The notes: generated by a model from the letters alone, not told the origin. Shown: positions 1,289-39,086, counted from the stretch's first letter. The stretch is DNA of 48,555 bases from Campylobacteraceae bacterium (GCA_027014605.1 JALWDJ010000017.1:1-48555); one strand, 5' to 3'. Translations and numbers: made by a program.

Positions 1289-2401
1289 TTACATGCTACA
1301 AGCACTAACACCTGGAGGTGTTGTAGGTTGAATAGCTTGATTATCAGCTCCACCCTCTTTAATCACTTTATCTATAAAGGCTAAAAGTTCACTACCTGCT
1401 TTTTGGTATCTTTTAGCAGTTTCAGAGTCCGCTTTATGATAAACTATAGGCATTCCACTATCTCCACCAACTCTAATAGCAGGTTCTATTGGTATCCTTG
1501 CAATTACATTAGTATTATACTCTTTTGCAACAGGCTCTGTTGTTCCCATTCCAAAAATATCAGATTCAGTGCCACACTCTGGACAGATAAATCCACTCAT
1601 ATTTTCTATAATTCCAGCAGTTGGAATATGAAGTTTTTTAAACATATCTAAACTTCTTCTACTATCATCAAGACTTACCTCTTGAGGAGTTGTAACAGTA
1701 ATCCCTGCTGTAACAGGAACTGATTGTGCTAAGGTTAACTGTGCATCACCAGTTCCTGGAGGCATATCAATTACAAGTACATCAAGTTCACTCCATAAAA
1801 TATCTCTTAGAAACTGCTCAATAGCTTTCATAATCATAGAGCCACGCCATATAAGAGATTGTCCCTCTTCCATAAGTGAACCCATAGACATAATCTCTAC
1901 ACCATAAGCTTTTAAAGGTAGAACTTTATTTCCTTGGATTTCAGGTTTTTGGTCAGCTATTCCCATCATTCTAGGTATATTAGGTCCATAGATATCTGCA
2001 TCAAGTAGTCCAACTTTTTTACCCTGCATCGCCATTGCAACAGCTAAATTTACAGAGGTAGTTGATTTTCCAACTCCACCTTTACCAGAACTTACCATTA
2101 CAAAACTCTTTACATGTGGAGCTATATTTTTACCTGTAACAGAATTGCTCATCTGCTTTGGTGGTTTTGGTGCTTTAATTTCTAAATTTATAGTATCAAA
2201 TCCTAATTTATTTAGCTCTTTTGTAACTTCATCTCTTATTTGAGCCTTAACCTCATCTGCTGAAGAGGTAATATCTACAACTAAATCTACACTATTACCA
2301 CTAATATTTATATCTTTTACAAATCCAAAACTTACAATATCTTTTGTAAATCCTGGATACGTTACACTCTTTAGTGCATCTAAAATATTTTCTTTTGTCA
2401 T
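1289..2401 (-). CDS. mrp: Fe-S cluster carrier ATPase Mrp/ApbC
   Basis: Mrp proteins are dimeric cytosolic P-loop ATPases that bind and deliver [4Fe-4S] clusters. Residues 1-75 form a MIP18/DUF59 domain. The deviant Walker A GKGGVGKST is at 106-114, followed by DADIYGPNIPRM and by VIDMPPGTGD. A CPEC motif follows NMSGFI and supplies the bridging cluster ligands. Length (370) is normal for the DUF59-ATPase form. The C-terminus ends ACSM. The only Fe-S protein within 10 kb is the ferredoxin at 9817, so context adds little. Confidence 0.94.
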   Translation of the reverse strand: MTKENILDALKSVTYPGFTKDIVSFGFVKDINISGNSVDLVVDITSSADEVKAQIRDEVTKELNKLGFDTINLEIKAPKPPKQMSNSVTGKNIAPHVKSFVMVSSGKGGVGKSTTSVNLAVAMAMQGKKVGLLDADIYGPNIPRMMGIADQKPEIQGNKVLPLKAYGVEIMSMGSLMEEGQSLIWRGSMIMKAIEQFLRDILWSELDVLVIDMPPGTGDAQLTLAQSVPVTAGITVTTPQEVSLDDSRRSLDMFKKLHIPTAGIIENMSGFICPECGTESDIFGMGTTEPVAKEYNTNVIARIPIEPAIRVGGDSGMPIVYHKADSETAKRYQKAGSELLAFIDKVIKEGGADNQAIQPTTPPGVSACSM

Positions 2402-2471: not shown

Positions 2472-3242
2472 TTACTCATTTTTTTCTAAAATAATAATCT
2501 CATGGGCATGATTAGTTCGTTTATCAACAGGTGGTAACTCCATATAGTTAAATGAATAGATATTTTCTAAATAGTGATGTGGGTCATTTGGTGCTAGAAA
2601 CTCTAACCCCTCAAACTCTATTCGTTTTAAAGGATATATAGCACTATATTTAAAAGCACCTGCTACATCTGGCATCTTCCCACTATATATAACTGAAGTT
2701 CCCTCTTTTTTATCCCAACCAAGATGTAATCTCTCAAGAGATTTTTTTATTAGCTTTCGTATCTTAGTAGAGTTAAACTTTTTTGCAGAAAAAAATCTAA
2801 GAGTAGCAAAGGCATACTCATAAAATAGATGATTTAATTTAGTCTCTTTAATTGCAAACATAGGAAATATATCTACAAAAACGCCTTGATTGTAGTCAAC
2901 TTTTTTATCTTTTTCGTGAAACTCTATGATTTTGGCTTTAGATGAACGAATTTTCATATAGTCAAATGGAAATGATGGGTCTGTAGTTCTGTTTTGTAAG
3001 AACATATCTTTAGGTAGCTCTTTTGATGCAATCTTTGCAAATGCCCTATAGTCCTCTACAGGCATAGATATATCTATATCATCGTCCCATGGGATAAACC
3101 CTTTATGTCGTACAGCACCAAGTAGAGTTCCACTATCTAGCCAATAGTCAAAATTATACTTTTTACAAATCCTATCAAACTCAATAAGAGACTCTAACAT
3201 AATAAGTTGAGCCTCTCTTAATATCTTAGGGTCTATATTCAC
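2472..3242 (-). CDS. LicD-family phospho-alcohol transferase
   Basis: LicD/fukutin-type nucleotidyltransferase-fold enzymes move phosphocholine or similar phospho-alcohols from CDP-donors onto sugars of surface glycans. The signature is clear at residues 34-60: YWLDSGTLLGAVRHKG, then the metal-binding cluster WDDDIDISM. The 256 residues have no signal peptide or membrane span, so it acts at the inner face of the membrane. The GTG start at 3242-3240 directly abuts the stop of the aminotransferase gene, making it the last cistron of a three-gene operon. The transferred group is not known; upstream enzymes suggest a CDP-activated amino-alcohol rather than choline, since no choline kinase or uptake gene is present. 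Confidence 0.85.
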   Translation of the reverse strand: MNIDPKILREAQLIMLESLIEFDRICKKYNFDYWLDSGTLLGAVRHKGFIPWDDDIDISMPVEDYRAFAKIASKELPKDMFLQNRTTDPSFPFDYMKIRSSKAKIIEFHEKDKKVDYNQGVFVDIFPMFAIKETKLNHLFYEYAFATLRFFSAKKFNSTKIRKLIKKSLERLHLGWDKKEGTSVIYSGKMPDVAGAFKYSAIYPLKRIEFEGLEFLAPNDPHHYLENIYSFNYMELPPVDKRTNHAHEIIILEKNE

Positions 3243-4322
3243 TTATCTTCTCTCTATTTTATAGAAGTCATACATTGCATCTATCAATACATCAACATAG
3301 GCTCTAGTCATCTCTCCCATGTGAGAGACTCTAAATATAGTATCTCTTAAATCTCCACCATTAGGGCATACCATAACCTTATATCCCTCTTCTAATCCAT
3401 CTACTATCTCCATTGCACTCTTACCATCTGTTGGAGTTAGTGTAGTCATAGCATTTGGCATATATGGGGTATAGAATTTTAAAGGTAAATCTTTAATAGA
3501 TGCTCTAAAGTATTCTGATATATCTTTAGCTCTCTTAATAGATTGCTCTACGCCACCTCTTCTTTTAATCTGTGATAACCTAGCTTCTAGTTGTAACATA
3601 ATAGTTACAGCAGGTGTATATGGTGTCTGTCCTCTCTCTCCATTTCTTAGATAGTCTTTAAAATTAAAGTAGAGATTGTCTATATCTTGAACTCTATTAA
3701 TTGCTTTTGGAGATAAGATTACCATAGTTAACCCAGGTGGTAGTGCTAATCCCTTTTGACTACTAGCAATAATTACATCAATATTTTGAGCAGACATATC
3801 AATTGGGTCAGTTACTAACATACTAATAGCGTCAACAATAAAAAATAGATTGTTCTTCTTAGAATACTCTCCCATCGCATTTAAGTCATATAGATGTCCA
3901 ACACTTGTCTCATGAGCATTAACAATAAGAGATGTAAAATTATCTTTGGGTGCTAACTCTTCTATATTGCTTAGATTTGTATCTTCTACCATAAAGTTGG
4001 TGTGAGGGATTGAGTGAGTTTTACATATATCTACAAATCTTCCTCCAAATCCACCACCATTGACTACTAAAGCCTTATCATTTTTAGTTAAAAGGTTTAT
4101 AACAGCAGACTCCATACCAGCAGTTCCTGATGCTGTTAAGAAGATTACTCTACTCCCTTTTGGAGCATTTACCATCTCTAAAAGCCCATTTTCACAATTA
4201 AAAGTGACCTCTGAAAATTTATCATTTCTAAAATATGGTGTCTGTTTAGCTCCAATTGCTAAAATCTCATCAGACATCTTAACAGGGCCTGGTGTAAAGA
4301 TATAATAATCTTCATATATCAT
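3243..4322 (-). CDS. Class V PLP-dependent aminotransferase (phosphonate/serine type)
   Basis: A fold-type I aminotransferase of class V. The N-terminal TPGPVKMSDEI motif (10-20), TASGTAGMESAV (63-74), Asp164 in VDAIS and the Schiff-base Lys190 in SSQKGLALPPGL are all present over 359 residues. Relatives include 2-aminoethylphosphonate-pyruvate and serine/alanine-glyoxylate transaminases; the KGLALPPGL active site is more like the latter. It lies 3 bases downstream of the cytidylyltransferase fusion and directly upstream of licD. I infer that it installs an amino group on the small phospho-alcohol or its aldehyde/ketone precursor. No phosphonate genes (PEP mutase, phosphonopyruvate decarboxylase) are in the window, so a phnW name is not justified. 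Confidence 0.85.
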   Translation of the reverse strand: MIYEDYYIFTPGPVKMSDEILAIGAKQTPYFRNDKFSEVTFNCENGLLEMVNAPKGSRVIFLTASGTAGMESAVINLLTKNDKALVVNGGGFGGRFVDICKTHSIPHTNFMVEDTNLSNIEELAPKDNFTSLIVNAHETSVGHLYDLNAMGEYSKKNNLFFIVDAISMLVTDPIDMSAQNIDVIIASSQKGLALPPGLTMVILSPKAINRVQDIDNLYFNFKDYLRNGERGQTPYTPAVTIMLQLEARLSQIKRRGGVEQSIKRAKDISEYFRASIKDLPLKFYTPYMPNAMTTLTPTDGKSAMEIVDGLEEGYKVMVCPNGGDLRDTIFRVSHMGEMTRAYVDVLIDAMYDFYKIERR

Positions 4323-4325
4323 AAA

Positions 4326-5702
4326 CTATCTCTCCTTCTTTTTTGTTTTTTTACTACTTTTCTCTTTAAACTCATTATAGTCTAATACAACCCTACTAAT
4401 TGATACCATATCAGATGGAGTTAACATTTTTGATTTTCGCTTATCTCTTTGAATAAGTGATGCAAACTCTGCAATCATATATCTAAGTCCACACCCCTCA
4501 AACTCATAATTAAATTTATAACTTTTATGTGTATCTTCAAATCTAAAATAGAACTCTCTTGTAAGCCACCATGGAGCAGGAATATATACATACCCTTTTG
4601 TTCCTGATATAACAGCATCTCCTTCAGATTTAATACCTGTTGCAACTCTTGCAATCCCTATTGCATCATCTTTATGAGTTGTAATAATTAGGTTACTAAT
4701 ATCATAATTTTTCTCTATTTGGTCAAAAAATTTTATGGATTTTCTCTTTCCTAAAACTTTATGAATTAGTAGAGATGGATAACCTGATAATATATTTGTA
4801 GCACCCTGCTCCATAAAACTATCTGGATAGTTCTTCTCTCTATATAGAGATGTTCGTGTAGCTCTAACCTCTTTTATTTCTCCAATATCACCCTTTTTAA
4901 GCTCTTTTAATAGCTGATTAAATGCAGGTAAAAAGGCTGTTTTTAGAGCAGTAAGAAGTATTAACTTTTTAGACTTTGCTAATGATAATAGCTCTTTTAA
5001 CTCTTTTTTATTAAGTGCAATAGGATTTTCACATAATACATGTTTTCCTGCTTGTAGAGCTTTTTTTATCAGTATATAGTGTCTTTTTAGAGAGGTATCT
5101 ATATATACTGCTTGAATTGGTGTATCTAAAAACTCATCATAGTTATCATGTCCAAATTTAATAATAGAACTCTCTTTTGTAAACTTTTTAATAGCTAAAA
5201 AATCATCTCCATAAATCCTATTTATTTTAATATTTGATACAAATTGTGCCTCATCAATAAAGAATTGTGTATCTCTTCCAAGTCCAACTATACCCATCTT
5301 AATTAAATCAAAATTCTCTCTTCTTAGTTGTGTACTTGAAATCCCCTCTGTTCGTGGAAGATACTTAACCTCTACATATTTTTTTAGATAATCAAATGTA
5401 CCAATCCAATCATCTCCAATAGCAAAAATATCAACATCATACTTAACCATATCTTGAGCTTTTTGTTTTTTATGTTTTTCGACTATAACTTTATCTACAA
5501 AGTCAAGCTTCTCTATCGCTTTTACTCTCTTTTTAGTACTTTGAATAACATTTAATTTACCCCTTGAACGGTCGTAGTTCTCATCTGTGACACCTACGAT
5601 AAGATAATCGCCAAGTGCCTTAGCTCGTTTGAGCAAATTCATATGTCCTTCATGGAGCATATCATAAGTTCCATAGGTGATTACTGTTTTTTTATTTTTC
5701 AT
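4326..5702 (-). CDS. Cytidylyltransferase / Gfo-Idh-MocA oxidoreductase fusion
   Basis: Two domains in one 458-residue chain. Residues 5-130 are a TagD/GCT-type cytidylyltransferase: TYGTYDMLHEGH with the HxGH motif at 17-20, and the TEGISST loop at 118-124. Residues 134-455 are a Gfo/Idh/MocA dinucleotide-binding oxidoreductase (KMGIVGLGRDTQFF at the junction). The usual EKP motif reads ENP (225-227), so the conserved lysine is Asn, and the Rossmann glycine pattern is altered. It is first of a tight operon with the aminotransferase and licD. No Shine-Dalgarno sequence is evident before the ATG. The likely job is making a CDP-activated reduced small alcohol phosphate; the substrate is not determinable here. 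Confidence 0.85.
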   Translation of the reverse strand: MKNKKTVITYGTYDMLHEGHMNLLKRAKALGDYLIVGVTDENYDRSRGKLNVIQSTKKRVKAIEKLDFVDKVIVEKHKKQKAQDMVKYDVDIFAIGDDWIGTFDYLKKYVEVKYLPRTEGISSTQLRRENFDLIKMGIVGLGRDTQFFIDEAQFVSNIKINRIYGDDFLAIKKFTKESSIIKFGHDNYDEFLDTPIQAVYIDTSLKRHYILIKKALQAGKHVLCENPIALNKKELKELLSLAKSKKLILLTALKTAFLPAFNQLLKELKKGDIGEIKEVRATRTSLYREKNYPDSFMEQGATNILSGYPSLLIHKVLGKRKSIKFFDQIEKNYDISNLIITTHKDDAIGIARVATGIKSEGDAVISGTKGYVYIPAPWWLTREFYFRFEDTHKSYKFNYEFEGCGLRYMIAEFASLIQRDKRKSKMLTPSDMVSISRVVLDYNEFKEKSSKKTKKKER

Positions 5703-5805: not shown

Positions 5806-6441
5806 TTATATTTTTTCTATAAAATTTTCTAGCCCTTTATCTAAAAACCACCACTCTTTCTTAAAGTAACTATCATAAAATGGTTGCGTTACTATTTGAA
5901 ACTCATTTCTATCTTTATATAGATTTACACACCAATCATAATCTATATTTCTACTTTTTAAAGCTTCAATACTAAGTAGTGTATCATTAATACACCCTAA
6001 TTTTGATGGAGTTACCAAAAGTACCTTTGCATTTAACTCTTTAGCTAAATCTATCATCATATAATCTTTTGTAATTGGGACAAATAACCCCCCAGCTCCT
6101 TCAATGATTAATATATCAGATAATTTAGATAACTCTTTGATTTTATCTTTAATTTTCTCTATATTAATCTCTCTTTTTATATCTGCACAAAATGGTGCTG
6201 AAGGTAACTTAAATGTATATGCTGTTATATCTTTTGGATTTATAGATTTAAACTTTTTATTATAGATTTTTACTTTTTCTAGGAGTTTTTTAGCATCCTC
6301 TGGTTCATAGATAACACCAGTTTCTATGGGTTTACAAACACCAACTTCTATTTTATGTTTGGCTATGTTTTCAATTAGTTTTAATGATACAAAAGTTTTA
6401 CCAATATTGGTATTTGTCGCTGTAACAAAGAGTAATTTCAC
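5806..6441 (-). CDS. bioD: Dethiobiotin synthetase BioD
   Basis: ATP-dependent carboxylase that closes the ureido ring of 7,8-diaminopelargonate to give dethiobiotin. The P-loop TATNTNIGKT (residues 7-16), the CKPIETG segment and IEGAGGLFVPI are diagnostic; 211 residues is near the family norm. The GTG start at 6441-6439 has a GGAGA site upstream. No other bio gene is in the window. The gene is divergent from clpS. Its GAGGL codons include a six-base C/G run (6088-6093), short but notable. Confidence 0.92.
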   Translation of the reverse strand: MKLLFVTATNTNIGKTFVSLKLIENIAKHKIEVGVCKPIETGVIYEPEDAKKLLEKVKIYNKKFKSINPKDITAYTFKLPSAPFCADIKREINIEKIKDKIKELSKLSDILIIEGAGGLFVPITKDYMMIDLAKELNAKVLLVTPSKLGCINDTLLSIEALKSRNIDYDWCVNLYKDRNEFQIVTQPFYDSYFKKEWWFLDKGLENFIEKI

Positions 6442-32339: not shown

Positions 32340-33632
32340 ATGAGATTAGAGTTTTTATCATATATTTTAGATAAAGAGACACCAACCTATGGAGATAGGG
32401 AGAGATTTAATCAGTTTAAAAAAAGTAGTATTAGTAGTGGAGATATAGCAAACAATACATCTATAGAGACTACAACACATATAAGCACACATATAGATAT
32501 GCCATATCACTTCTATGAAGAGGGTAAGAGTATAGAGGATTATCCAGCATCTTTTTGGCATTTTAGTAGAAGAGAGATACTATATATTGAGTTAAAAGCT
32601 AAAGATTTAATAGTAAAAGATGAGTTAATATCTAAACTAAAAGAGATTAAAAATCGCCATAGATATAAGATTTTAATAGTTAAAACTAATATATGTGCTA
32701 TTAGAGGAGAGAGAAAATTTTGGGCTAAAAATTATGGTTTCTCTCCAGATATATATGATTATCTAATAAAATATTTTCCTAATATTAAAATATTTGGTTT
32801 TGATAGTATATCTGTATCTAGTTTTGCAAATAGAGCTATTGGAAGAGAGGCACATAAGAGATTTTTAAATCCTAAAAGAGAGATTTTACTATTAGAGGAT
32901 ATGAACTTATGCAGATTAGATAGAAACAGAAAAATTAAAGAGCTTACTATAGCACCACTTAGAATAAAAAAGAGTGACGGCATTCCCTGCTCTATTATTG
33001 CTAAGATAAAGATACCAAAAGTTAAAAATATACTTTGGGATTTTGATGGTGTAATTTTCAATAGTATGAAGATTAAAAATGATGGATTTTTAGAGCTATT
33101 TAAGGGACATAAGCAGGAGGATTTAGAGAAGTTTAGAGAGTATAATTATATAAGTGGTGGAGTTCCTAGATTTGATAAAATTAGATATTTCTACAATACT
33201 ATTATAAAAGAGGATATAAGTGATGATGAGGTTAAGAGATTAGCAGATAAGTTTTCTACTATTATTCAAAATAGACTATTTTTAAGAGAAAATCTAATAT
33301 CTGATACTATAGAATTTATTAAAAGAGAGTATAAAAATTATAATTTTCACATAACTTCAGGTGCAGAGCATAATGAGTTAAATAGATTGTGTAGAGAGTT
33401 TAATCTATCTAAATATTTTATCTCTATTGAGGGGAGTCCTACAAAAAAAAGTATTTTAATTAAAAATATTTTAAAAAATTATGAATATAGGGAAAAAGAT
33501 ACAATCTTAATTGGAGATGCCATTACAGACTACTATAGTACTTATGATAATGGAATTGGTTTCTATGGTTATAATAACCCTAAGTTAAAAAACTTCCTCT
33601 ATATTGAGAGTTTTAAGGATTTTAAAATTTGA
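32340..33632 (+). CDS. Cyclase (formamidase-like) / HAD phosphatase fusion
   Basis: Residues 1-225 are a metal-dependent cyclase/kynurenine-formamidase fold: the HxxTHxDxPxH signature reads His47, His51, Asp53, His57, with Glu186 in LLEDMNL and the closing PLRIKKSDGIPCSIIAKI strand. Residues 228-430 are a HAD hydrolase, with the nucleophile in WDFDGVIFNS (Asp234, Asp236) and IGDAITDYYS near the C-terminus. Both halves look intact. It opens the CDP-sugar locus and overlaps the glycosyltransferase by 4 bases. I infer hydrolysis of a formyl amide or ester plus a dephosphorylation on a sugar precursor; the substrate is unknown. Confidence 0.8.
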   Translation: MRLEFLSYILDKETPTYGDRERFNQFKKSSISSGDIANNTSIETTTHISTHIDMPYHFYEEGKSIEDYPASFWHFSRREILYIELKAKDLIVKDELISKLKEIKNRHRYKILIVKTNICAIRGERKFWAKNYGFSPDIYDYLIKYFPNIKIFGFDSISVSSFANRAIGREAHKRFLNPKREILLLEDMNLCRLDRNRKIKELTIAPLRIKKSDGIPCSIIAKIKIPKVKNILWDFDGVIFNSMKIKNDGFLELFKGHKQEDLEKFREYNYISGGVPRFDKIRYFYNTIIKEDISDDEVKRLADKFSTIIQNRLFLRENLISDTIEFIKREYKNYNFHITSGAEHNELNRLCREFNLSKYFISIEGSPTKKSILIKNILKNYEYREKDTILIGDAITDYYSTYDNGIGFYGYNNPKLKNFLYIESFKDFKI

Positions 33633-35089
33633 GAGAGTTAGATAAAGCTTTTAAAATTAAAAAAGAGGAGTTTTTAGACTATATTAGAGATATAAAAAGA
33701 AAATCAATATGGGATATATATACAATCTCTAATGTAACTCTTATATCAAATCCATATATTACAGACTTTCCAAAAAACTTTTTTTTAAATAAAAAGAGTA
33801 GTAAATATTTTATAAAAAGTCTATTTAAGTTCTATATAAAGCAGTTTTATCTATTTAACTCATATCTAATTAGCTTTTTTCTATATAAGATATATTATAA
33901 AAAGAGAAACTTAGATTTTAAAAACTCAACTCTTATAGATATTTTTTTTCTAATAGATAATATAAATAGAGATGGAGAGTTTAGAGAGAACTACTTTAGA
34001 GGCTTATATCCATATTTAAATAACTATATCTTTCTACCTAGACTATATGGAGCAAATAGAAATCCATTTAAACTTATAGAGTTTTTTAAAATTATATCAA
34101 AAGATAGTAGGAGTTTTCTATTTGAGTTTGAACTGCTTAAATTTAGAGATTTTATAAAGATAGTAAAATTAATAACTCTATATCCATTTAAAACTCTAAG
34201 ACTCTATAGGGATAATGATATTTTCAATAGTTCACTTATAGCAGATATAGAAAAACAGCAATTTGAAGCCTTTAGTAGATATATTTTAGGTAAAAATACT
34301 GCTAAATTAGATGGAGTTAAAAAAATATTCTCATGGAGTGAATTTCAGACTATTGAGAGGAGTTTTAATTATGGAGTTAGAAAGATGGATAGCAATATTA
34401 AGATATATGCCTCTCAACTATATCTTAACTATGAGACATATCTAAACTCATATATAGATGATATTGATTTTGATATGTTATCATCTCCTCACTTTGTTTT
34501 AGTAAATGGAAAATATTATCTTAAAGAGAGAAAAAAGGTTAAATATAGAGTTGGAGTCTCTTTTAGATATGCAGAGATATTTAAATTTAAAAGAGAAAAA
34601 GAGGGAAATGCTACTCTACTATTAGGTTCATATATTTTAGATGATACAAAATATATGTTATTTATGGTAAGCAAATTTAAAAATGTGTTATTTAAGAGCC
34701 ATCCAGCCGTTAATATTGCCTATTTTAAGGGCATAAAGGATAATATTAAGATTGTAGATAGTAATATATATGAGCTATTTTATAGAGCTAATTTAGTAAT
34801 ATCAACAGCATCAGGCACAGCAGTTGAGGCTGTAAGCTGTGAACTTAGTGTTATTATTATAGCAAGTAGAGATAATCTAACTTCAAATCCTTTAGTTGAC
34901 TACGGTAGAGGTGAAATTTGGGATATAGCTTTTAATAGAGATGAAATAGATAGCATCTATAATAGTTTAATAGAATATAGAAATAAAAATAGAGATAAGA
35001 TAGTTAAAATAGCTAAATGGTATAGAGATAATTTTTTTATAGAGCCAAAGAGAGAGAATATTATAAGAGCATTTGATTTAGGAGATTAG
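33629..35089 (+). CDS. Surface-carbohydrate glycosyltransferase (LIC13510/TIGR04326-like)
   Basis: A 486-residue protein, Lys/Tyr/Phe-rich, resembling O-antigen proteins of the LIC13510 type with a GT-B-like C-terminal half. SHPAVN and ELFYRANLVISTASGTAVEAVSC (visible in pieces at about 363-412) match the nucleotide-sugar end of GT-B folds. There is no signal peptide; a hydrophobic stretch (YLFNSYLISFFLYKIYY) near residue 75 may associate with the membrane. The TTG start overlaps the previous gene by 4 bases, and rfbF follows after 3. Donor and acceptor are not known. Confidence 0.65.
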   Translation: MRELDKAFKIKKEEFLDYIRDIKRKSIWDIYTISNVTLISNPYITDFPKNFFLNKKSSKYFIKSLFKFYIKQFYLFNSYLISFFLYKIYYKKRNLDFKNSTLIDIFFLIDNINRDGEFRENYFRGLYPYLNNYIFLPRLYGANRNPFKLIEFFKIISKDSRSFLFEFELLKFRDFIKIVKLITLYPFKTLRLYRDNDIFNSSLIADIEKQQFEAFSRYILGKNTAKLDGVKKIFSWSEFQTIERSFNYGVRKMDSNIKIYASQLYLNYETYLNSYIDDIDFDMLSSPHFVLVNGKYYLKERKKVKYRVGVSFRYAEIFKFKREKEGNATLLLGSYILDDTKYMLFMVSKFKNVLFKSHPAVNIAYFKGIKDNIKIVDSNIYELFYRANLVISTASGTAVEAVSCELSVIIIASRDNLTSNPLVDYGRGEIWDIAFNRDEIDSIYNSLIEYRNKNRDKIVKIAKWYRDNFFIEPKRENIIRAFDLGD

Positions 35090-35092
35090 AGT

Positions 35093-35869
35093 TTGAAGGT
35101 GGTACTATTAGCAGGAGGGTTTGGAACAAGGATATCTGAAGAGACAGATATCCGTCCAAAACCTATGGTAGAGATTGGTGGTAAACCAATTCTATGGCAC
35201 ATTATGAAGATATATTCACACTATGGATATAATGATTTTGTAGTTCTCTTAGGATATAAGGGGTACTATATAAAAGAGTATTTTGCAAACTATTTTTTAC
35301 ATCAGAGTGATATAACTATAGATTTACAAAATAATAGAATGGAGGTTTTAAATAACTCTAGTGAGCCTTGGAGAGTAACTCTACTTGATACAGGATTAAA
35401 TACAATGACAGGTGGAAGAGTTAAACAGGCTCAAAGAGTTATAGGCAATGAGGCATTTATGTTAACTTATGGTGATGGTGTAGGAGATATAGATATAGAT
35501 GAGTTGGTCTCTTTTCATAAAAAAAATAAAAAATTAGTCACAATGACATCAACACAACCAGAGGGTAGATTTGGTGCTTTAGATATTGATGAGAATAATC
35601 TTGTTAAGGTATTTAAAGAGAAACCAAGAGGTGATGGTAGTTGGATAAATGCAGGTTTTTTTGTATGTCAACCAGAGGTATTTGATTATATTCCAGATAA
35701 TAACTCTATTATGTTTGAAAAAGAGCCATTAGAGCATTTAGCAAGAGATAGAGAGCTAATCACCTTTAAACATAGAGGTTTTTGGAAACCGATGGATAGT
35801 CTAAAAGATAAAAAAGATTTAAATACTCTATGGGATAACAATCTTGCCCCATGGAAAATATGGAGTTAA
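35093..35869 (+). CDS. rfbF: Glucose-1-phosphate cytidylyltransferase
   Basis: Makes CDP-glucose from CTP and glucose-1-phosphate, the entry to CDP-deoxysugars. LAGGFGTRISEETDIRPKPM (6-25) is the nucleotide-binding loop, followed by LLGYKGYYIKEYF, YGDGVGD and GRFGALDID. Length 258 matches RfbF/AscA. The TTG start has GGAGA eight bases upstream. rfbG follows 3 bases later. Confidence 0.95.
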   Translation: MKVVLLAGGFGTRISEETDIRPKPMVEIGGKPILWHIMKIYSHYGYNDFVVLLGYKGYYIKEYFANYFLHQSDITIDLQNNRMEVLNNSSEPWRVTLLDTGLNTMTGGRVKQAQRVIGNEAFMLTYGDGVGDIDIDELVSFHKKNKKLVTMTSTQPEGRFGALDIDENNLVKVFKEKPRGDGSWINAGFFVCQPEVFDYIPDNNSIMFEKEPLEHLARDRELITFKHRGFWKPMDSLKDKKDLNTLWDNNLAPWKIWS

Positions 35870-35872
35870 GAG

Positions 35873-36976
35873 TTGTTTAATAGTATATTTAAAGATAAAA
35901 AAGTTCTAATAACAGGACATACAGGATTTAAAGGTAGTTGGCTAGTCACTTGGCTTTTAAAATTGGGAGCTAATATTGTTGGAGTATCTAAAGATATACC
36001 TACTAATCCATCTATGTTTGAGGTTTTAGAGCTAAAAAATAGAATAAAAGATTATAGAGAGGATATTAGGTCTTTAGATAAGATAGTTAAAATTATTAAT
36101 AGTGAAAAACCAGATTTTCTATTTCATCTAGCAGCACAACCTATAGTATCTCAATCTTATGTCAATCCAATAGAGACAATATCTTCAAATATAATGGGAA
36201 CGGCAAATATATTAGAGGCTTTAAGATTATCTAATCATAACTGTATAGCTATTATGATAACAAGTGATAAGGCTTATGATAATATAGAGCAGGTTTGGGG
36301 ATATAGAGAGATAGATGCTATAGGTGGGAAAGATATATATAGTGGAAGTAAGGGGGGGGCTGAATTTGTTATAAAATCATACTACCACTCTTTTTTTAAA
36401 TCTGATAAATCAAATATAAAACTAGCAGTTGGTAGAGCAGGTAATGTAATTGGTGGTGGAGATTGGGCAAAAGATAGGATTGTAGTTGATTGTATAAGAG
36501 CTTGGAGTAAGGGAGAGGCTGTAGAGATACGAAGTCCTAAAGCTACAAGACCTTGGCAACATGTATTAGAACCTCTAAGTGGATATCTAAGATTAGCTCA
36601 ATCTCTAACCAAAGATGACCATCTTGTAGGAGAGGCATTTAATTTTGGACCAAAAGCAGAACAGAACCACACTGTAGTAGAGCTTTTAGATGACTTAAGC
36701 AGATATTGGAATTTCAAGGATAGCTCTTTAGCCTTTAGAGTTACAGAGAATATCCCTTTTCATGAGGCAGGACTTTTAAAACTAAATTGTGATAAGGCAC
36801 TATTTTACCTTAAGTGGCAAAGTAGTTTAGATTATAGAGATACAATTAGATTTACAAGTGAATGGTATTACGATTTTTATAAAAGAGATGTTAATATATA
36901 TAATAGAACTATTAAACAGATAGAAGAGTATGAAAATATAGCAAAAGAGGGAGGATTGATATGGACAATAGAGTAA
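35873..36976 (+). CDS. rfbG: CDP-glucose 4,6-dehydratase with G8 tract
   Basis: Extended SDR that converts CDP-glucose to CDP-4-keto-6-deoxyglucose. The NAD site is TGHTGFKGSW (14-23), and the active site is Thr130/Ser131 with Tyr156 and Lys160 in YSGSKGGAEF. Length 367 is full. Eight consecutive G (36352-36359) encode the end of Lys160 and the next two glycines plus Ala. In this AT-rich gene GGG codons are rare, so the tract looks selected for slippage. The end overlaps the cupin gene by 16 bases. Confidence 0.94.
   Translation: MFNSIFKDKKVLITGHTGFKGSWLVTWLLKLGANIVGVSKDIPTNPSMFEVLELKNRIKDYREDIRSLDKIVKIINSEKPDFLFHLAAQPIVSQSYVNPIETISSNIMGTANILEALRLSNHNCIAIMITSDKAYDNIEQVWGYREIDAIGGKDIYSGSKGGAEFVIKSYYHSFFKSDKSNIKLAVGRAGNVIGGGDWAKDRIVVDCIRAWSKGEAVEIRSPKATRPWQHVLEPLSGYLRLAQSLTKDDHLVGEAFNFGPKAEQNHTVVELLDDLSRYWNFKDSSLAFRVTENIPFHEAGLLKLNCDKALFYLKWQSSLDYRDTIRFTSEWYYDFYKRDVNIYNRTIKQIEEYENIAKEGGLIWTIE
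36352..36359 (+). repeat. rfbG: Poly-G tract (G8) in rfbG, candidate phase-variation site
   Basis: Eight G in a row within codons AAG GGG GGG GCT. The reading frame is on at eight; gain or loss of one G would put everything after the catalytic Lys out of frame. Poly-G tracts in surface polysaccharide genes are the standard contingency mechanism in Campylobacter. Confidence 0.75.
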
Positions 36977-37371
36977 TTTTAACACCTTTAAAGAGAATTT
37001 TTAATCCAAAAGGTGATATATACCATGTGATGAAGAGTAGTGATATTGGATATAGAGGATTTGGAGAGGCATATTTTACTACTATCAATAAAAATGAGAT
37101 TAAGGGGTGGAAAAAGCATAATAGAATGACTCTAAATTTAGTAGTAATTGTTGGAAGAGTAAAATTTGTAATATATGATGAGATAACTAGAAAGTTCTCA
37201 ACAGTTATACTCTCTCCTACAAACTATCAGAGATTAACTGTAAATCCACAACTATATTTAGCTTTTAAAGGTTTAAAAGAGAATAATATAATTCTTAATA
37301 TTGCTAATTTACAACATGACCCATATGAGGTAGAGAATTTAGATATTTTAAAGATTAACTATGAGTGGTAA
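36961..37371 (+). CDS. Cupin sugar epimerase-like (RmlC/FdtA-like)
   Basis: A short 136-residue double-stranded beta-helix protein similar to dTDP-4-dehydrorhamnose 3,5-epimerase-like and WxcM/FdtA enzymes. KGDIYHVMKSSD, GFGEAYFTTINKNEIKGWKKH with a candidate His, and LYLAFKGL can be seen. It probably isomerises the 4-keto sugar made by RfbG at C3 and/or C5. The ATG has GGAGG and overlaps rfbG by 16 bases. The downstream SDR is the likely reductase. Confidence 0.75.
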   Translation: MDNRVILTPLKRIFNPKGDIYHVMKSSDIGYRGFGEAYFTTINKNEIKGWKKHNRMTLNLVVIVGRVKFVIYDEITRKFSTVILSPTNYQRLTVNPQLYLAFKGLKENNIILNIANLQHDPYEVENLDILKINYEW

Positions 37372-38290
37372 ACGACTCTTAATTACAGGTGGCTTTGGGA
37401 ATTTAGGATTATGGTTTAGTGAATATTTTACTACAAAAGGTTATGATATATATATATTATCAAAAAATATTAAAAATAGTTTTATCTATAACTCTATTCA
37501 AGCTAATATTATAAATTTAGAAGAGTTAAAAGAGAAACTAAAATATATAGAAGTAGATTATGTAATACATACAGCAAGTTATAATGAGTATTTTCATAAA
37601 AATTATGCTAAAAAGGCTCTTTTAGTAAACTCTCTAGGTACTAGAAATCTTATAGAAGTTTTAAAAGATAAAAATATTAAAAATTTCATATATCTTAGTA
37701 CATTTCATATATATGGAACAAGCAGTGGAGTAATAGATGAGACCACTCCCCCAAATCCAAAAAATGATTATGCATCAACACATCTATTTGCAGAATTTTA
37801 TTTAAAACAGTTCTATAGCTCATCTAATTTTCCTTATATAATATTTAGATTAACAAATAGTTATGGCTCTCCAAAATCTATCTCTACGAATAAGTGGTAT
37901 TTAGTATTAAATGATTTAGTCAAATCTGCCTATCTATATAGAAAAATTGTTTTAAATAGTAATGGAGAGGCAAAAAGAGATTTTATATGGATAGGTGATG
38001 TTTGTAGGGTAATGGAGAAGAGTTTTAAATTTGAACCAAATAATATATTTAATCTCAGCTCAAAAAAGAGCTATAATATTCTATTTTTAGCTAAAAAAGT
38101 TAGAAAAATATATAAAAAGAGATATAAAAAAGATATAGAGATTGTCATAAATAAGGAAGATAAAACTAAACCTTTAAATTTAGTAGTTGATAATAGCAAA
38201 CTAAAGAAGCTCATAGATTTTGAGTTTTTAGATAGATTTGAGAAGGAAATAGAGAATATTTTTACTCTATTAGAGAACAATTATGGCTAA
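37361..38290 (+). CDS. NAD-dependent epimerase/dehydratase (SDR) with Tyr-x3-His
   Basis: Extended SDR of 309 residues. The nucleotide loop is TGGFGNLG (9-16); YLSTFHIYG (111-119) holds the Ser/Thr. The catalytic pair reads Tyr137...His141 (DYASTHLFAEFY) where YxxxK is expected. It probably reduces or epimerises the CDP-keto sugar. It overlaps the cupin gene by 11 bases and the GT2 gene by 8. I cannot say which sugar is formed; the His may reduce or alter activity. Confidence 0.8.
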   Translation: MSGKRLLITGGFGNLGLWFSEYFTTKGYDIYILSKNIKNSFIYNSIQANIINLEELKEKLKYIEVDYVIHTASYNEYFHKNYAKKALLVNSLGTRNLIEVLKDKNIKNFIYLSTFHIYGTSSGVIDETTPPNPKNDYASTHLFAEFYLKQFYSSSNFPYIIFRLTNSYGSPKSISTNKWYLVLNDLVKSAYLYRKIVLNSNGEAKRDFIWIGDVCRVMEKSFKFEPNNIFNLSSKKSYNILFLAKKVRKIYKKRYKKDIEIVINKEDKTKPLNLVVDNSKLKKLIDFEFLDRFEKEIENIFTLLENNYG

Positions 38291-39086
38291 AGTCTCAATA
38301 TTAATGAATGGATATAATTCAGAGAAGTATCTAAAAGAGGCAATTGATAGTATATATAATCAAACTTTTAAAGATTGGGAGATTATATTTATTGATAACT
38401 GCTCAACTGACACTACTAAAGAGATAGTATTAAGTTATGATAAGAAGATAAAATATTTTAAAACCTATAAAAATATTCCTCTTGGTGAAGCTAGAAACTT
38501 TGGATTAAAAGAGTGCAAGGGGGAGTATCTTGCATTTTTGGATACAGATGATATATGGCTAAAAGATAAGCTTAAAAAACAGATTACTCTTTTAGATAGT
38601 AATCAAGATTTACAGATGTGTTATAGTGGAGCTATATGGATAGATGAGTATGGAGATGAGATAAATAGAGATTTACCAAAAGCTAAGAGTGGATATGTTT
38701 TTCAATATCAACTAAAACGGTATGAGGTTAATATGCAGAGTGTTGTTATTAGAAACAATATTCCTATAGAGTTTAATACTAAAATGGAGTTCTCACCAGA
38801 TTTTGACCTATTTATGAAGATAATGAGTAGATATCAAGTAGGAGTGGAGAGAGAACCTCTTATAAAATATAGAAAACTCTCTAACTCTCTAACTACAAAA
38901 AAGATAGATAGATGGGGAGTAGAGATGAGAGAGACATTAGATACTATATTTAGTCAAAATCCAAAATTAAAGAGAGAGTATCCTATAGAGTATCTTCGTG
39001 CTTATGCTAAAGTTTACTACTACTACGCTAGATACTACTTTAGTATGGCTTTTATTAAAAATATTATAAATAGGTGTAAAATATGA
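38283..39086 (+). CDS. Family 2 glycosyltransferase
   Basis: GT-A fold enzyme of 267 residues. SILMNGYNSEKYLKEAIDSI opens the donor site, DNCSTDTT follows, and the metal-binding FLDTDDIW (D-x-D) is clear, as is EFSPDFDLFMKI. No membrane helix is needed; a short hydrophobic C-terminal tail ends in KCKI-like basic residues. It likely transfers a sugar of this locus, maybe the CDP-derived one. The stop overlaps the DUF819 gene. Confidence 0.88.
   Translation: MAKVSILMNGYNSEKYLKEAIDSIYNQTFKDWEIIFIDNCSTDTTKEIVLSYDKKIKYFKTYKNIPLGEARNFGLKECKGEYLAFLDTDDIWLKDKLKKQITLLDSNQDLQMCYSGAIWIDEYGDEINRDLPKAKSGYVFQYQLKRYEVNMQSVVIRNNIPIEFNTKMEFSPDFDLFMKIMSRYQVGVEREPLIKYRKLSNSLTTKKIDRWGVEMRETLDTIFSQNPKLKREYPIEYLRAYAKVYYYYARYYFSMAFIKNIINRCKI

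Follow-up and report, generated by a model that had tools for sequence, protein, structure and literature searches.

A conserved cytidylyltransferase fusion, aminotransferase and LicD gene set predicted to make and transfer a CDP-activated amino-alcohol

Three packed genes in a 48,555-nucleotide stretch of DNA from a Campylobacteraceae bacterium (GCA_027014605.1, JALWDJ010000017.1:1-48555; the whole stretch is called the window here) raise the question of what an aminotransferase is doing between a cytidylyltransferase and a LicD-family transferase. The first-pass annotation had proposed that oxidoreduction, transamination and CDP activation of a small phosphate yield a CDP-activated amino-alcohol, which is then transferred to a glycan. 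Our analysis leads us to consider it likely that the trio is a module making and transferring a CDP-activated amino-alcohol. Whether that amino-alcohol is serinol specifically is, in our estimate, an even call.

Gene layout and recurrence of the trio

Calling of open reading frames placed the fusion gene, the class V aminotransferase gene and the LicD gene on the minus strand (Table 1), with 3 bases (4323-4325) between the first two and none between the last two, exactly the packing first described. No glycan cluster adjoins the trio on its flanks in the window, and promoter-like matches at the trio are close to the number expected by chance; taking only gene spacing and conservation into account, we call the three genes a putative operon.

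Table 1. Positions of the trio, the domains of the fusion and the neighbouring genes in the window
Feature	Position	Strand	Details
Fusion gene, whole	4326..5702	-	458 aa; CTP:alditol-phosphate-type cytidylyltransferase and Gfo/Idh/MocA-like domain; Pfam PF01467, PF01408
Cytidylyltransferase domain, residues 1-131	5310..5702	-	HEGH and RTEGISST intact; closest solved structures TagD-type 1coz, 2b7l
Gfo/Idh-like domain, residues 132-458	4329..5309	-	EKP reads ENP; Asp/His positions replaced; conserved GTKGYxYIPxPWW block
Class V aminotransferase	3243..4322	-	359 aa; Pfam Aminotran_5; presumed PLP lysine in ASSQKGLALPPG; nearest structure 3f0h
LicD-family phosphotransferase	2472..3242	-	256 aa, GTG start; Pfam LicD; WDDDIDISM motif
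Neighbour, BioD-like gene	5806-6441		PF13500
Neighbour, Mrp-like gene	1289-2401		PF10609

The trio is a conserved unit. Scanning a genome collection with the window fusion yielded two remote cytidylyltransferase matches and 14 close relatives at 73-96% identity. Of the 14, 12 (L004-L006, L008-L015, L017) carry fusion, aminotransferase and LicD in the same order amid differing flanking genes; in L007 and L016 the stretch stops short of the third gene. Two further loci, L051 and L130, also show the trio in order. The first-pass annotation had suggested searching genomes for this order, and had held that its reading would fail if the genes were never found together elsewhere; they recur. Hosts of the 14 relatives are mostly Sulfurovum-like Campylobacterota and, by record title, also include Gammaproteobacteria (L011), Thiotrichaceae (L012) and Sulfuriflexus (L015), all of them metagenome-assembled genomes (MAGs), with L015 on a 200-kb contig and L012 sharing a sample number with L010, such that mis-binning is possible. 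The distribution is patchy, with the trio in 2 of 298 genomes from the window's class and in 2 of the 63 from the family to which the Thiotrichaceae MAG belongs. Base composition gave no clear signal of recent transfer, the GC content of the trio being close to that of its flanks at most loci and about 5 points lower at L015.

Related gene sets occur in Bacillota. Searches around a Hungatella MAG found aminotransferase homologues at 39-45%, and at seven loci (L061, L069, L070, L071, L072, L073, L129) a fusion homologue is the aminotransferase's direct neighbour or lies two genes away, six of these stretches also containing a LicD gene, with none seen at L070; L074 and L075, which have weaker aminotransferase homologues, lack the fusion. 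The set stands reshuffled within polysaccharide clusters at L061, L069, L071, L072, L084 and L129. L084 is a Ruminococcus albus plasmid, the only plasmid with the gene set in our plasmid search, whose public annotation lists LicD, class V aminotransferase, cytidyltransferase, LicD, GNAT and LicD in such a cluster. When a Bacillota fusion served as query, it was present in 41 of 348 genomes, with a class V aminotransferase, a HisC-like one or neither among its neighbours; loci with neither often carry a glycerophosphodiester phosphodiesterase (GDPD) and LicD, and some carry CDP-glycerol glycerophosphotransferases.

The fusion protein and its partners

The N-terminal domain of the fusion (Pfam CTP_transf_like, residues 8-128) most closely resembles TagD: its nearest PDB entries, 1coz (E ~1e-35) and 2b7l (E ~1e-32), are both glycerol-3-phosphate cytidylyltransferases, and it shares their HxGH and RTEGIS motifs. 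It differs from TagD in its fusion to a Gfo/Idh domain, an architecture conserved across 60 aligned loci, in the loop DRSRGKLNV, and in its score against the TIGR01518 equivalog model, which at 126.2 bits (protein scan) or 130.4 bits (genome scan) falls below the cut-off of 165.4.

The second domain matches Pfam GFO_IDH_MocA (PF01408) over residues 134-250 (60.9 bits against a cut-off of 24) but lacks catalytic residues expected of a dehydrogenase. The EKP lysine is absent from 35 of the 60 aligned fusions and kept in 25. Those without it comprise two outliers (L120, L121) and a group of 33 including the window's, whose branch support of 80 is not strong. All 33 have N, H, S, A, T or L in its place, the Asp/His catalytic pair is replaced in every one, and the GxGxxG motif, which reads GLGRDT and is partly degraded in the window protein, is gone from the Bacillota members. 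In the sister group, by comparison, all 25 fusions keep the lysine and GTGRIA is intact. Judged by these residues, the Gfo/Idh domain of the window's group is probably not a working dehydrogenase, and since redox residues are missing throughout the group, the simpler route does without oxidoreduction. An AlphaFold model of the fusion, built from close relatives only, was too poor to inspect the NAD pocket (mean pLDDT 56).

Lysine loss and gene neighbourhood run together: 28 of 30 fusions near an aminotransferase are without the lysine, and 23 of the 25 that have the lysine have no aminotransferase nearby, the exceptions being L098 and L105. As the lysine was lost in a single change on the fusion tree, this split (28/30 against 2/25) is a property of the group and not repeated evidence, and an independent-pairs test against aminotransferase presence was uninformative. 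Five lysine-less Bacillota fusions of the window's group have no aminotransferase within four genes.

Several loci around these fusions have features of their own. In the sister group, the Bacillota loci L103, L106, L108, L113, L115 and L119, with EKP and GTGRIA intact, have GDPD and LicD beside the fusion, along with a protein of approximately 850 aa that matches nothing in Pfam, and are possibly a system for glycerol-phosphate decoration; flagellin-like ORFs occur at some loci related to sister-group fusions (L114). Stand-alone Gfo/Idh-like genes lie next to or near the fusion at L114:7741-8745, L117:5391-6380, L119:7694-8686 and L094:4058-5011. The lysine-less fusion at L090:5208-10379 has no aminotransferase; next to it are genes for a TPP enzyme, an HMGL-like aldolase and an iron alcohol dehydrogenase, neighbours that hint at some other CDP-activated group. 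At L129:7780-9994, ornithine cyclodeaminase-like and octopine dehydrogenase-like genes separate aminotransferase and fusion.

For the window's aminotransferase the closest structure is 3f0h (E 2e-96), itself uncharacterised, and the best family matches are PhnW-AepZ and BhcA, enzymes of aldehyde acceptors; against the 2-aminoethylphosphonate (AEP) transaminase model TIGR03301 the window's enzyme reaches 161.3 bits where the cut-off is 360.8. At some related fusion loci, a HisC-like class I/II aminotransferase occupies the class V slot, and the two types changed places at least six times on the fusion tree within the aminotransferase-linked group, where amination thus appears to be the constant job. 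Nothing else indicates as strongly that amination feeds this cytidylyltransferase as the alternation of two aminotransferase families in a single position. The LicD protein matches PF04991 at 145.9 bits (cut-off 22.6) and carries the acidic DDDID motif within WDDDIDISM; its sole NCBIfam match is the Mf1 cholinephosphotransferase of Mycoplasma fermentans (NF045866), at 71.2 bits against a cut-off of 225.

A candidate route to CDP-serinol and its alternatives

An aminotransferase feeding a CDP-activated amino-alcohol to LicD, as first claimed, remains the best reading of a gene set that proves to be conserved elsewhere. As for the examples offered for the substrate, a serinol-phosphate-like group is now the leading candidate, about as probable as all else together, and a phosphonate-like group falls away, the genome's sole PEP-mutase-family match being PanB-like. 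On the serinol route, the class V aminotransferase would aminate C2 of DHAP to give serinol phosphate (2-amino-1,3-propanediol phosphate), the TagD-like domain would combine this with CTP into CDP-serinol, and LicD would move phospho-serinol onto a surface glycan or glycolipid, with the Gfo/Idh domain a remnant or a binding or structural module without a dehydrogenase role; we infer every substrate here, and the acceptor. DHAP is the ketone of glycerol-3-phosphate and serinol phosphate its 2-amino analogue, and a TagD-like enzyme could, by this analogy, plausibly accept the latter. HisC, for its part, acts on a DHAP-like ketone phosphate. There is precedent for both ends of the route: in C. 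jejuni, Cj1437 reportedly converts DHAP to (S)-serinol-P by transamination (PMC11800397), and the M. fermentans glycolipid MfGL-II bears phospho-2-amino-1,3-propanediol (phospho-serinol) on glucose (PMC3403081).

The rest of the 1.98-Mb genome has little that competes. The window LicD is the only one found, the TIGR01518 scan revealed no second TagD, and there is no PF01633 match that would indicate the choline kinase LicA. Nor is there a PEP mutase (PF13714), the single match being a PanB-like ORF by sequence, at 30.8 bits for the stretch and 33.8 with its neighbours against a cut-off of 31.5. The trio would accordingly need no more than DHAP, an amino donor and CTP. Absence of PEP mutase rules out a native phosphonate pathway, and absence of choline kinase the standard lic (phosphocholine) route. 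The acceptor could possibly be an N-glycan, as two STT3-family genes are present, or LPS. The same contig has a second carbohydrate cluster (window 32340-39086), with a cyclase/HAD protein, a 258-aa nucleotidyltransferase with a GDP-mannose-dehydratase-type enzyme next after it, another epimerase and a GT2 glycosyltransferase; the sizes of the nucleotidyltransferase and the dehydratase-type enzyme recall those of the CDP-glucose RfbF/RfbG pair.

Some observations weigh against serinol. The aldehyde-acceptor matches of the aminotransferase could mean an aldehyde phosphate and not DHAP, the five lysine-less fusions with no nearby aminotransferase and the lysine-bearing L098 and L105 beside one break the pattern, GLGRDT is only partly degraded and so conserved a Gfo/Idh domain presumably does something, and the Mf1 match lies far under its family cut-off.

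It is improbable, though worth weighing, that another small amine is used, with glycolaldehyde phosphate giving ethanolamine phosphate or glyceraldehyde-3-phosphate giving 3-amino-1,2-propanediol phosphate, and with CDP-ethanolamine or CDP-isoserinol made and LicD transferring the group. The class V relatives PhnW and AepZ do act on a small phosphono-aldehyde; glycolaldehyde phosphate, however, is to our knowledge no main metabolite, which counts against this reading. The LicD enzyme Mf1 accepts CDP-ethanolamine in vitro (PMC11982090), and Cj1436 forms ethanolamine-P by decarboxylation (PMC11800397), so that HisC-like partners could be decarboxylases, but one such partner is far closer to HisC (1.6e-35) than to phosphothreonine decarboxylase (8.5e-17), and the cytidylyltransferase is nearest to glycerol-3-phosphate enzymes and not to ethanolamine-phosphate cytidylyltransferase.

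The order of steps in the first-pass annotation, in which a CDP-polyol is made (or a polyol phosphate accepted) by the fusion and oxidised by Gfo/Idh, after which the aminotransferase would aminate the ketone or aldehyde formed and LicD would transfer what results, seems unlikely to us. Its oxidoreduction step is unsupported, given that 33 of 33 members of the window's group lack both the EKP lysine and the Asp/His catalytic residues and that the Bacillota members have lost the NAD motif as well, even if the Gfo/Idh fold is retained and conserved and a sister group with EKP and GTGRIA includes L098 and L105 next to an aminotransferase.

We give still less credence to an ordinary CDP-glycerol system, in which glycerol-3-phosphate is the substrate that the fusion activates, glycerol phosphate is the group that LicD transfers, and the aminotransferase has its role at a different step of the same glycan. 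The likeness to TagD fits such a system, as do the GDPD and LicD genes adjoining sister-group fusions and the CDP-glycerol glycerophosphotransferases at some loci. The trio, however, is often the sole glycan-related set at its locus, which leaves the aminotransferase without another visible partner, and the alternation of two aminotransferase families and the score under the TIGR01518 cut-off also speak against it. Activation of 2-aminoethylphosphonate by a PntC-like enzyme and its transfer by LicD is scarcely credible, since the genome lacks PEP mutase and its lone family match is PanB-like, which leaves uptake of external AEP as the escape, although the aminotransferase is distantly related to AEP transaminase (161 bits against 361) and LicD-like genes occur in AEP loci (PMC6697681).

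Returning to serinol, a broader conjecture, which we hold tentatively and with some doubt, is that CDP-serinol is a widespread undescribed donor, that a redox-competent Gfo/Idh domain working on the three-carbon phosphate lost its activity in the lineage in which C2 of DHAP became the task of a separate aminotransferase, and that the partner gene sets whether the CDP donor is of the glycerol or the serinol type.

Comparison with known systems

The window's aminotransferase belongs to class V, unlike Cj1437, which we take to be a HisC-type enzyme. The C. jejuni capsule pathway (Cj1437, Cj1438C, Cj1435; PMC11800397), from the same phylum, shares with the proposed route the formation of serinol phosphate from DHAP by a PLP enzyme and the decoration of a surface glycan, but its serinol-P is amide-joined by an ATP-dependent ligase and then dephosphorylated, with no CDP activation and no LicD. 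Mf1 of M. fermentans is a LicD-family enzyme in a host whose glycolipids (MfGL-II/GGPL-III) include phospho-2-amino-1,3-propanediol (PMC3403081, PMC11982090), but it transfers phosphocholine or phosphoethanolamine (PMC11982090) and is weakly similar to the window LicD; the available portions of the literature on MfGL-II and Mf1 do not name the enzyme that adds phospho-serinol there. No CDP-serinol pathway or mention of one appeared in the literature searched, which took in few subscription papers, and enzymes supplying phospho-serinol for phosphodiester links are not described in the literature found.

Phosphodiester-linked amino-alcohols give bacteria zwitterionic surfaces, and the portable cassette common to sulfur-cycling Campylobacterota and Gammaproteobacteria and to Bacillota offers an assayable candidate for CDP-serinol synthesis. 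If the serinol route is true, it would suggest a function for the structure 3f0h and would correct the annotation of many cytidyltransferase/oxidoreductase fusions without the catalytic lysine in their oxidoreductase half.

The lic phosphocholine systems (LicA/LicC/LicD) likewise pair a LicD transferase with a CDP donor, but the window genome has no choline kinase and its set includes an aminotransferase. The premise that known LicD systems need no aminotransferase does not hold, since AEP loci already combine AEP production, the cytidylyltransferase PntC and LicD-like transferases (PMC6697681), so that LicD systems fed by an aminotransferase are already a known kind. Those loci resemble the window's set in a class V-type aminotransferase, CTP activation and LicD-like transfer of an amino-bearing group to surface glycans, whereas the window genome lacks PEP mutase, its cytidylyltransferase is of the TagD/HxGH type (PF01467) and fused to Gfo/Idh, and its aminotransferase scores under the AEP cut-off. 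The sequences suggest three novelties here: a TagD/Gfo-Idh fusion whose redox half is probably dead, aminotransferases that replace one another, and the product that is probably made.
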